Source: Candidatus Gastranaerophilales bacterium
GTDB taxonomy: Bacteria; Cyanobacteriota; Vampirovibrionia; Gastranaerophilales; Gastranaerophilaceae
Assembly (NCBI GenBank): GCA_944323265.1
Contig: CALURX010000011.1
Span: 1-49,846 of the forward strand
DNA: 49,846 bases
Reading direction: 5' to 3'
This document shows, piece after piece, positions 19,702-22,664 of this stretch. The translations under genes were made by a program, and so were the position numbers. The stretch's first letter is position 1. Every line of letters begins with the position of its first letter. A model generated the notes under the pieces. The model had not been told where the DNA came from, ran no database searches, and saw only the letters and a program-made list of their open reading frames with translations.

Positions 19702-22182
19702 ATGAAAGAGTCGTATTTTCCTCAGGAAATAGAAAAAAGATGGCAGGAAGTTTGGGAAAGAAATAATGTTTTCCACACTCCTGATAATAGTGATAAGCCT
19801 AAATATTATGCTTTGTCAATGTTTCCGTACCCATCCGGCAAGCTTCACATGGGGCATGTTAGGAATTATACAATTACTGATGTAATTGCAAGGTTTAAGA
19901 AGATGCAGGGATATAATGTTCTTCATCCGATGGGTTGGGACAGCTTCGGGCTTCCGGCAGAAAATGCTGCAATGAAGCATGGTGCAGATCCTGCCAAATG
20001 GACTGATGAGAACATTGCCTATATGACAAAGCAGCTTAAGATGTTAGGGCTTTCTTATGACTGGCAGAGAGAAGTTACGACATGTAAACCTGATTACTAT
20101 AAATGGACACAGTGGCTGTTTATACAGTTATTCAAAAAAGGCCTTGCTTACAAGAAAGAAGCTGCTGTTAACTGGTGTGAAAACTGCGGTACTGTACTTG
20201 CAAACGAACAGGTAATTGACGGCAAGTGCTGGAGATGCGATAGCGTTGTTGAGAAAAAATACCTCTCACAATGGTTTTTCAAGATTACAGATTACGCGGA
20301 AAGATTACTTGAAGACTTGGATAAGCTTGACGGCTGGGGTGATAATGTTAAAACAATGCAGGCAAACTGGATTGGAAAATCCCAGGGTGCTATATTCCGC
20401 TTCAAAGTTAAAGAAATCGAGGGGCTTGAGGTTCCGGTTTATACTACAAGACCGGATACAGTGCATGGTATAACATATCTTGTAGTAGCTCCTGAATATA
20501 AGGATATAGAAAAACTTACAACTCCTGAAAATAAAGAGGCTGTTGAAGAATACAGAGCAAACGCAAGAAAGATGACAGAAATTGAGCGTCTTTCAACTGA
20601 TAGAGTAAAAACAGGCGTTCCTCTCGGGACACACTGTATAAATCCGTTTACCGGAGAAGAATTCCCTCTGTGGACAGCGGATTATGCTCTTGTAGAATAC
20701 GGAACAGGTGCTGTGATGGCTGTTCCTACGCATGATACCAGAGACTTTGATTTTGCAAAAAAATATAATCTACCGTTGAAGGTTGTTATTCAAAATCCTG
20801 AAAACCCTTCTGACTGCAAAGACGGTGCTTACACAGAAGAAGGAGTTCTTGTTAACTCAAATGAATTTAACGGAATGAAAAATACTGAAGCTAAACAGGC
20901 TATTACACAAAAAGCTGTAGACGGAGGCTTTGGAGAATTTAAAACACAGTACAGATTAAGAGACTGGCTGATTTCAAGACAGAGATACTGGGGAGCTCCG
21001 ATTCCTGTTGTATATTGCGATAAGTGCGGTATTGTTCCGGAAAAAGAAGAGAATCTTCCGGTAATGCTTCCGACAGATGTGGACTTCTCTGTTGTTGGAA
21101 AATCTCCTATTACAACATCAAAAACATTTGCGGAAACAACCTGCCCAGTATGCGGCGGAAAAGCCAGAAGAGAGTTGGATACAATGGATACCTTTGTATG
21201 CTCAAGCTGGTATTACATGAGATATTCCGACCCTAAAAATACAGAACGGCCATTCTCGAAAGAACTTGTGGACAAATGGCTTCCGGTTGACCAGTATGTA
21301 GGCGGTATTGAACATGCAATTCTGCACCTGTTATATTCACGATTCTTTACTAAGGCATTGAAAGATATAGGACTTTTAAGCTTTGATGAACCGTTCAAAA
21401 ACCTTTTAACACAGGGAATGGTTCTAAAAGACGGCTCTAAAATGTCAAAATCTAAGGGAAATACGGTAGATCCGGACGAAATATTTGAAAACTACGGAGC
21501 TGATACCGCAAGATTGTTTATACTCTCAGATTCACCACCGGCGAGAGATTTTGACTGGTCAGATGCAGGTGTTGAGGGCTGCTATAAGTTCCTAAACAGA
21601 GTTTGGAGACTGGTGAGCGATAATCAACAAAACCTGATTAAGGATTACAAATTAGAGTTTCCTCTTACAAGAGAAAACGATGATTTAGTCAGAACTGTAC
21701 ATATAATGATTAAGGAAATCACAAACGATATTTCAAACGATTTCCAATTCAATACGGTCATATCTAAGTACAGAGAATTGACTAATGCAATCTATGAATG
21801 GAGAGGAGCTAAAAAGGAATTAAGCGAAGAAGACAAAAATGTTTTAAGCTTTGCTATTATTACCTTAATCAAGCTTATGTCACCTGTTACAGTTCACATG
21901 TCTGAAGAAATATGGCATGAACTTGGCTTTGACGGCTCAATCCACGACCAAATGTGGTGTGAGTGGGACGAAAATCTTGCAAAAGCAAGTAAGTTTACGC
22001 TGGTTGTTCAAATCAACGGTAAAGTTAAAGACAAGATTGAGGCTGATGAGGGAGTAACTGACGAGGAACTTAAGGCTATAGCTCTTTCGAGTGCAAAAGT
22101 TAAAGAACTGATTGCGGGAAAAGAGATTGTAAAAACGATAGTTGTTCCTAAAAAGCTTGTGAACATTGTTGTAAAAGGATAA
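19702..22182 (+). CDS. leuS: Leucine--tRNA ligase
   Basis: 826 aa, full length for bacterial LeuRS. Class I signatures: HMGH in GKLHMGHVRN (near 50) and KMSKS in DGSKMSKSKGN (near 577). Zinc-binding cysteines CENCGTVLANEQVIDGKCWRC (about 159-178), then the CP1 editing domain with VPTHDTRDFDF. The C-terminal anticodon-binding and LTVVVQINGKVKDK-type region is present. AGGGAGGT precedes the ATG and a TATAAT lies at 19672-19677. Terminator follows. Confidence 0.97.
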   Translation: MKESYFPQEIEKRWQEVWERNNVFHTPDNSDKPKYYALSMFPYPSGKLHMGHVRNYTITDVIARFKKMQGYNVLHPMGWDSFGLPAENAAMKHGADPAKWTDENIAYMTKQLKMLGLSYDWQREVTTCKPDYYKWTQWLFIQLFKKGLAYKKEAAVNWCENCGTVLANEQVIDGKCWRCDSVVEKKYLSQWFFKITDYAERLLEDLDKLDGWGDNVKTMQANWIGKSQGAIFRFKVKEIEGLEVPVYTTRPDTVHGITYLVVAPEYKDIEKLTTPENKEAVEEYRANARKMTEIERLSTDRVKTGVPLGTHCINPFTGEEFPLWTADYALVEYGTGAVMAVPTHDTRDFDFAKKYNLPLKVVIQNPENPSDCKDGAYTEEGVLVNSNEFNGMKNTEAKQAITQKAVDGGFGEFKTQYRLRDWLISRQRYWGAPIPVVYCDKCGIVPEKEENLPVMLPTDVDFSVVGKSPITTSKTFAETTCPVCGGKARRELDTMDTFVCSSWYYMRYSDPKNTERPFSKELVDKWLPVDQYVGGIEHAILHLLYSRFFTKALKDIGLLSFDEPFKNLLTQGMVLKDGSKMSKSKGNTVDPDEIFENYGADTARLFILSDSPPARDFDWSDAGVEGCYKFLNRVWRLVSDNQQNLIKDYKLEFPLTRENDDLVRTVHIMIKEITNDISNDFQFNTVISKYRELTNAIYEWRGAKKELSEEDKNVLSFAIITLIKLMSPVTVHMSEEIWHELGFDGSIHDQMWCEWDENLAKASKFTLVVQINGKVKDKIEADEGVTDEELKAIALSSAKVKELIAGKEIVKTIVVPKKLVNIVVKG

Positions 22183-22190
22183 AATCAAGA

Positions 22191-22220
22191 GGCTGAGCAA
22201 AAGCTCAGCCTTTTGATTTT
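22191..22220 (+). terminator. Intrinsic terminator of leuS
   Basis: GGCTGAGC, AAAA loop, GCTCAGCC, then TTTTGATTTT. Flanking AAAATCAA upstream can extend pairing, so it could work in both directions. Confidence 0.92.
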
Positions 22221-22239
22221 AGTATTTATATATTTACAT

Positions 22240-22430
22240 CTAAACATTGTGCTATCACATAGCCATTCTTTCCCTGTTGGGATAAGGCCTACAGGCTTGG
22301 CGTTTTGGGGATGGAATTGCCACTCCCTAAATAAAGTATATTTACCCCGCACGCGTGTGAGCGAAGCGAGCCATAGCGTGCGTGAAAGATTGGGCGAAGC
22401 ACAATAACAAACCACATTTGAGCGGTAGCG
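22240..22430. repeat. Repeat-like intergenic segment, higher GC than surroundings
   Basis: Between the leuS terminator and the triplex element lies a segment whose composition differs from the neighbours: CGCACGC (22348-22354) pairs with GCGTGCG (22376-22382), and phrases such as GAGCGAAGCGAGC (22359-22371) and GAGCGGTAGCG (22421-22431) recur in variant form. Both strands are open for 60-70 codons without ribosome binding sites. It looks like a dispersed non-coding repeat. The minus strand shares the pieces GGGTAAATA, AAGCC and GGGAA-GAA in the same order with the gcvT-gcvH gap at 44.25-44.38 kb. Copies elsewhere in the genome cannot be checked here. Confidence 0.45.
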
Positions 22431-22450
22431 AAAATGTAGAAAACAACAGC

Positions 22451-22509
22451 TTTTTTCTTCTCTTTTGGTTCTGTTTTCTCTTCTTTTTTTTGCTAAAAAG
22501 AAGAGAAAA
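22451..22509 (+). other. Polypyrimidine mirror repeat plus complementary purine arm, triplex-capable
   Basis: TTTTTTCTTCTCTTTT (22451-22466) and TTTTCTCTTCTTTTTT (22474-22489) are exact mirror images separated by GGTTCTG. The purine arm AAAAAGAAGAGAAAA (22495-22509) is the perfect reverse complement of 22474-22488 (15-bp hairpin, 6-nt loop). The first arm matches the purine arm in parallel orientation, so 15 consecutive T(U).A-T and C+.G-C triples can form within one strand, or H-DNA in duplex DNA. It is not a usual terminator because no T tract follows the hairpin. Confidence 0.8.
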
Positions 22510-22526
22510 TGAACATATATGTAAAT

Positions 22527-22539: not shown

Positions 22540-22592
22540 TAGACTTAAACCCTAAAGATTTTTGAATTTGTGCCGTAAATACGAGTATTAAT

Positions 22593-22616
22593 GTAACTCA
22601 ATATGTATTGTGTTAC
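22593..22616. other. Imperfect hairpin in the convergent gap
   Basis: GTAACTCAAT (22593-22602) and ATTGTGTTAC (22607-22616) pair over 10 bp with one mismatch. Together with the repeat-like part and the triplex element, it makes this gap rich in structure. No coding sequence is seen in 22221-22669. Confidence 0.4.
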
Positions 22617-22630
22617 TTGTAAATTTCTAT

Positions 22631-22664
22631 AAAAAGAGGTTAGTTTATAAACTAACCTCTTTTT
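22631..22664 (-). terminator. Intrinsic terminator of the kinase-like gene
   Basis: AAAAAGAGGTTAGTTT and AAACTAACCTCTTTTT form an almost complete palindrome, a terminator in either direction, six nt beyond the minus-strand stop codon at 22670. Confidence 0.9.

Follow-up and report, generated by a model that had tools for sequence, protein, structure and literature searches.

The element at positions 22451–22509 of the window (the whole 49,846-nt stretch of contig CALURX010000011.1 analysed here) is one copy of a repeat that is dispersed in its Gastranaerophilales genome and in many further bacterial chromosomes, and the three arms of this element co-vary between copies and between species as a triple helix folded from one strand requires, which suggests, on the evidence of sequence comparison, that the fold is under selection. 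The structural class itself is known (PMC4666352); the novelty lies in an A/T-rich family, in how widely it occurs and in the covariation of its three arms. Base-by-base inspection bears out the design drawn in a first-pass annotation of this DNA. The first pyrimidine arm, Y1 (TTTTTTCTTCTCTTTT, 22451–22466, + strand), is the exact reverse of the second, Y2 (TTTTCTCTTCTTTTTT, 22474–22489), and the purine arm, R3 (AAAAAGAAGAGAAAA, 22495–22509, + strand), is the exact reverse complement of 22474–22488. When the parallel complement of R3 is compared with Y1, all 15/15 positions match, giving 15/15 triplets in which Y1 would be the Hoogsteen (third-strand) arm, the segment 22474–22488 of Y2 the Watson-Crick pyrimidine arm (the mirror match extends to 22489) and R3 the central purine arm. 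On the same strand, the linker GGTTCTG (22467–22473) lies between Y1 and Y2, and the hairpin loop TTTGCT (22489–22494) lies between Y2 and R3. The GTTC within the linker (22468–22471) pairs with GAAC (22511–22514) as a 4-bp foot that closes the stem, and its 3′ half is also the right-hand end of the dispersed core, just beyond which the copies diverge. Feet in relatives read GGTTC, GGTTAC, GGTAC, CGTAC or GGTCC.

As the annotation had it, the element is placed between convergent genes, which we take from their translations to be leuS (+) and udk (−). Both terminators lie outside the element, one on either side: the leuS intrinsic terminator at 22180–22221 (+), found by terminator scan, and the udk terminator AAAAAGAGGTTAGTTT..AAACTAACCTCTTTTT at 22631–22664 (−), read directly from the sequence. 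The element is also no normal terminator, in agreement with the earlier claim, since an intrinsic terminator has a G+C-rich stem and a T run, and here the stem is A/T, the T run is missing and the terminator scan made no call. Promoter matches at the window copy are at chance level only. Could such an arrangement arise by chance? In 60 versions of the window simulated with a first-order Markov model, mirror repeats of at least 10 nt occurred at 0.03 per window, the longest was 10 nt and none was accompanied by a purine arm, while matches to a pattern of the hairpin part had an expectation of 0 in 100 shuffles. Together with the tracking of G and C between Y1 and R3 presented below, these controls reject chance or low complexity as the origin, and the contention that poly-pyrimidine drift is insufficient is upheld by them.

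The window element forms the 3′ (right-hand) end of the repeat, for which BLAST returned at least 11 copies in this genome (the one in the window and a further ten with 80–96% identity, besides partial matches), copy counts in all genomes being derived from searches rather than complete genome scans. Alignment of 11 copies and a consensus fold delimit a core of ~171 bp (22345–22515, +), in which the triplex module is preceded by three hairpins: CGCACGC..GCGTGCG, ATTGGGC..GCCCAAT (in the other copies) and ACATTT..AAAATGT. Search matches define a longer form of ~268 bp (22248–22515, +), the longest in the genome, that is common to four other copies. To the right of the core, a 26-bp palindrome TGTAAC..GTTAC (22592–22617) resembles the right-hand terminal inverted repeat of a larger unit; its left-hand partner is not recognisable at the window copy. 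In seven other genome copies a 26-bp palindrome (TGTAACNNAATANNTATTNNGTTACA) stands at either end, the two members of a pair being approximate reverse complements of each other, and these units measure 383–397 bp or 478–576 bp. Across the genus, palindrome pairs recur at fixed spacings, for example 392 bp in one genome (G007) and 283 bp in another (G070), and often with zero mismatches between the two ends. Such inverted pairs have the appearance of MITE-like unit ends at the window palindrome, at seven further loci (L002–L005, L008, L016, L018) and in G007 and G070, and the cargo between them varies, comprising A/T triplexes, a motif of the G/C-rich TMECO type discussed below, or other hairpins. 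Several repeat copies have no palindrome bounds, so the palindrome unit does not cover every copy. At three loci (L128, L103, L188), the part made up of loop, R3 and foot (CGTGAAAAGAAAAGTAAC or similar) is tandemly duplicated beside a complete element. Two relatives that share this gene order (G069, G022) have an empty leuS–udk site, where a short terminator region alone separates the genes, and in the close relative G070 the junction is rearranged such that other genes now flank each of the two (L209, L319).

One possible explanation, which we regard with some doubt, is that the repeat is selfish mobile DNA whose triplex hairpin would be a single-stranded site for a putative transposase or recombinase; this overlaps with the explanation preferred below and adds a name for its agent. 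The dispersal of the copies, the empty sites in relatives, the terminal palindromes and the proximity of copies to stop codons and tRNA 3′ ends all speak for it. However, the sole PF01797 transposase found in the genome has its own GTAGGTCAGGCATTGCCTGAC repeats, the PF01797 copies inspected in relatives have no adjacent triplex element, no clear target duplication was seen in the flanks inspected by eye, and no element matches were found in the phages and plasmids searched or in viral contigs (an IMG/VR scan for the GGTTAC-type element, which is present in at least 119 stretches of genome_contigs). REP sequences, mobilised by RAYT transposases, are short, dispersed, intergenic hairpins as here, but the window family lacks their GTAG head, and the RAYT (PF01797) genes inspected in the genome and its relatives are not flanked by the triplex element; mobilisation of the repeat by a RAYT was rejected, the transposase that was found having repeats of its own. 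That RAYT-like gene (L316, G000 C13:40477–40803) lies between the GTAGGTCAGGCATTGCCTGAC REP-like palindromes, with a partial match of 25 nt to the triplex element ~150 bp away. MITEs are non-coding and have terminal inverted repeats, comparable to the palindromic pairs of seven genome copies of the repeat, of which the window copy shows the right-hand member only; unlike in MITEs, the terminal repeats here are themselves palindromes, target duplication is not clear and several copies have no terminal repeats.

How far does the hairpin extend beyond this order of bacteria? Same-order relatives were found by a query that included Y1, and for this reason an independent set was drawn by scanning genome_contigs for GGTTAC-TTTTYYYYYY-loop-RRRRRRAAAA-GTAAC with nothing required upstream, leaving Y1 unspecified; the pattern fixes the foot and four T:A pairs and says nothing on their conservation. 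The scan yielded at least 119 stretches with the GGTTAC-type hairpin, and among the matches listed are Lentisphaerota, Bacteroidota, Gammaproteobacteria, Clostridia, Endomicrobia, Deltaproteobacteria and Leptospiraceae. In these other phyla, the element lies at the 3′ ends of genes and turns its purine side toward an oppositely reading gene in 36/50 tandem cases (p = 0.003), a count obtained with a crude ORF caller on partly related loci. Copies in Lentisphaeria have the foot immediately next to a stop codon or to the 3′ end of a tRNA. GGTTAC-type elements stand at about zero distance from a tRNA 3′ end or a stop codon at fourteen loci, and at three of these (L116, L123, L271) an intrinsic-terminator-like hairpin then follows in the sense of the gene. 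No replication-strand bias of the element was seen.

A further question is which strand, and which molecule, would carry the fold. With A-rich arms, the pyrimidine motif (T.A-T and C+.G-C) is the stable option, and the other strand would need A.A-T. Triplex chemistry thus points to the + strand as the strand of the window element that would form a stable triplex. The first-pass annotation had allowed for either an RNA or a DNA strand, and of these the RNA reading is not supported. Transcription of the Y-Y-R strand into an RNA triplex that protects or processes a 3′ end, like triplexes of the ENE/MALAT1 type, appears improbable. Pyrimidine-motif intrastrand triplexes are possible in RNA (PMC4666352), and the upstream hairpins of the core would suit a structured RNA. 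However, the window copy lies between two terminators, so that read-through from leuS or udk is unlikely to reach it, its promoter matches do not exceed chance, and no Rfam family reaches the gathering threshold for the element. Moreover, in the 36/50 tandem contexts described above the Y-Y-R strand is antisense to the neighbouring gene; an element co-transcribed with such a neighbour would yield Y-R-R RNA, and triplexes of the purine motif are not formed by RNA (PMC4666352). Taken with the terminators on either side of the window copy, this favours a DNA-level role over an RNA role.

The claim for selection is based on the way the three arms vary. Relatives of the same order, in which the first-pass annotation had proposed to look for recurrence, contain ~13 arm types, in nearly all of which both the mirror and the inverted match are exact, as exemplified by TTTCTCTTTTTCTTTT/TTTTCTTTTTCTCTTT/AAAGAGAAAAAGAAAA (L080) and TTTCTCTTTCTTTTC/CTTTTCTTTCTCTTT/AAAGAGAAAGAAAAG (L007). 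The independent set was enlarged with further copies from ten genomes of the matches listed, and the 151 distinct elements among the matches listed and these added copies were scored with no threshold: Y1 has T opposite A of R3 at 1165/1258 positions and C opposite G at 194/211. In the direct-order reading of Y1, by contrast, C coincides with C at 22/211. The mirror match spans the whole stem in 98/151 of the distinct elements, and in 58 unique elements preselected at a mirror match of at least 0.8 the interior triplets are consistent at 556/573 positions. Elements within a genome are related by descent, and copy counts are for this reason not event counts; distinct arm sequences, of which the GGTTAC set has 14 R3 types, provide the more conservative measure. 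A variant of the statistic, in which identical elements were collapsed and reverse-strand readings kept, is weaker and runs in the same direction. The covariation that had been proposed as a check is thus present, in that Y1 changes with the hairpin across many arm sequences and both the Watson-Crick and the Hoogsteen matches are kept.

These data bear on whether the hairpin alone might be functional, as a terminator, protein site or transposase site, with Y1 a pyrimidine tract that is alike merely by composition. Homologous loci with the hairpin only had been named beforehand as evidence against the triplex, and locally they exist: two of the 11 aligned genome copies (C53 and C49b) keep the hairpin and have a degraded third arm. 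They are outweighed by the cross-family covariation. Were the hairpin all that mattered, Y1 would not track it, yet C of Y1 follows G of R3 at the frequency given above; a mirror flank accompanies 85/122 asymmetric hairpins, compared to 25.3 ± 3.6 under a null in which flanks are swapped between elements, and 70 of these 122 hairpins are mirror-only and 1 direct-only. In addition, the + strand hairpin of the window runs into ATATATG, not into a T run. The mirror-flank excess and the tracking of R3 by Y1 reject the hairpin as the full account and leave this reading very unlikely. Least probable of all is that the mirror repeat alone matters, as H-DNA in supercoiled duplex, because, even though Y1 and Y2 form a perfect homopyrimidine mirror repeat, H-DNA has no need of R3, and R3 is nonetheless present in 74/77 asymmetric pyrimidine mirror repeats in all fetched DNA, two of the remaining three having R3 with a Y2 mismatch (L030, L068) and the third being a degraded copy (L116).

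This pattern is most simply explained by selection on a three-stranded fold, because arm-to-arm copying maintains an inverted repeat and cannot produce a parallel complement. The arms are, in our judgement, probably selected for an intrastrand pyrimidine-motif triplex rather than for H-DNA or a bare hairpin. At six loci (L023, L049, L027, L069, L070, L245), an internal purine interrupts Y2 while Y1 and R3 are still exact partners; a Y2 mismatch of this sort beside matched Y1 and R3, as at L049, L070, L027 and L245, is not what a pure stability argument predicts. The idea, taken from copies in G041 and G053, of a better-preserved Hoogsteen than Watson-Crick match fails as a rule, as interior oddities number 8 in Y2 and 7 in Y1.

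The design is not novel as such, contrary to its first description, as bacterial one-strand triplex elements are known (PIT/BoxC/TMECO, and class IV in ITxF; PMC4666352). Holder et al. 2015 drew up a catalogue of intrastrand triplex motifs from 5246 prokaryotic genomes and plasmids and used four classes, of which class IV makes up 4% of the motifs (PMC4666352); apart from that study, the literature search found nothing on point for this repeat or an equivalent family. The window element has the class IV (ITxF/PIT) arm order, with a 5′ Hoogsteen pyrimidine arm followed by a pyrimidine and a purine arm and with TAT/CGC triplets throughout its 15/15 positions. ITxF was limited to loops of 1–6 nt and stems of 6–15 nt (PMC4666352), whereas Hoyne et al. 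2000, as cited there, allowed 0–10 nt. The 7-nt linker of the window exceeds the ITxF loop limit (that of the GGTTAC relatives is 6 nt), but the assignment to class IV stands on arm order, because this limit belongs to the search and is not a biological criterion.

The G/C-rich TMECO motif (BoxC, PIT) of E. coli forms a triplex in vitro, and DMS footprinting by Holder et al. found none that was stable in vivo; earlier studies had seen neither promoter nor terminator activity, and its flanks are unstable (PMC4666352). TMECO and the window element share three arms on one strand that are able to form a triplex, as well as a dispersed, intergenic, multicopy distribution, and the TMECO arm order (Y-R-R, class II) is that of the complementary strand of the window element. 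Unlike TMECO, the window family is A/T-rich and best read as a class IV pyrimidine motif of 10–16 triplets, with a Watson-Crick foot (GGTTC/GGTTAC), highly varied arms and three-way covariation, and it is part of a larger repeat that also has further hairpins and palindromic ends. The TMECO/BoxC consensus CCCTCNCCC N3-6 GGGNGAGGG N3 GGGNGAGGG does not fit the A/T-rich window element. H-DNA mirror repeats share its homopyrimidine mirror symmetry, to which an inverted purine arm is nearly always added here. TMECO-type motifs are found in 13/16 genomes, including five in the window's own genome under a slightly relaxed pattern, whereas the backwards control of the pattern gave no matches in the 16 genomes. 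BoxC/TMECO-type motifs number up to 31 per genome, and those noted lie on five contigs of the window's genome and in five relatives (G026, G022, G069, G008, G009). One palindrome-bounded unit (L337) carries a TMECO-type CCCTCTCCTCAGGGAGAGGGCTGGGGTGAGGGG. By their sequence patterns, A/T-rich and TMECO-type triplex motifs thus coexist in one genus.

On balance, and with only a slight lean in its favor, we hypothesize that the window copy belongs to a dispersed repeat borne on chromosomes, and that selection acts on the 3′ module of this repeat for a class IV DNA triplex on the + strand that serves the repeat itself. As single-stranded DNA, the + strand would form a hairpin from Y2:R3 and the foot, and Y1 would be laid in the major groove of this hairpin as a parallel Hoogsteen strand, with T.A-T and C+.G-C triplets completing the intrastrand triplex. 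The fold would form in the cell and would act as DNA while the strand is transiently single-stranded, during replication, during repair or in a transcription bubble. It would serve the repeat and not the flanking genes, being recognised or tolerated both at the 3′ ends of genes and within a MITE-like, palindrome-ended unit; taken singly, this DNA-level, element-serving role of the triplex is tentative. The foot of 4–5 bp leaves 1–2 nt from Y1 to the base of the stem, such that foot and full triplex may be mutually exclusive.

Intrastrand triplexes in bacteria have been proposed since 2000 from sequence pattern, the in vivo evidence for them is weak, and the best-known motif is little varied. 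The A/T-rich elements, present in several phyla with many arm sequences, provide a covariation test for triplexes, and in them the Hoogsteen arm tracks the purine arm, position for position and in mirror order, a relation that ordinary duplication or palindrome correction cannot yield. A bolder and rather unlikely proposal is that the A/T-rich and G/C-rich one-strand triplexes might be two forms of one pan-bacterial chromosomal class, absent from phages, in which a triplex in single-stranded DNA would be read by a dedicated factor of the cell or of the element, either to spread or to mark the 3′ ends of genes. With the A/T-rich elements as natural variants, whether bacteria use DNA triple helices becomes directly testable.
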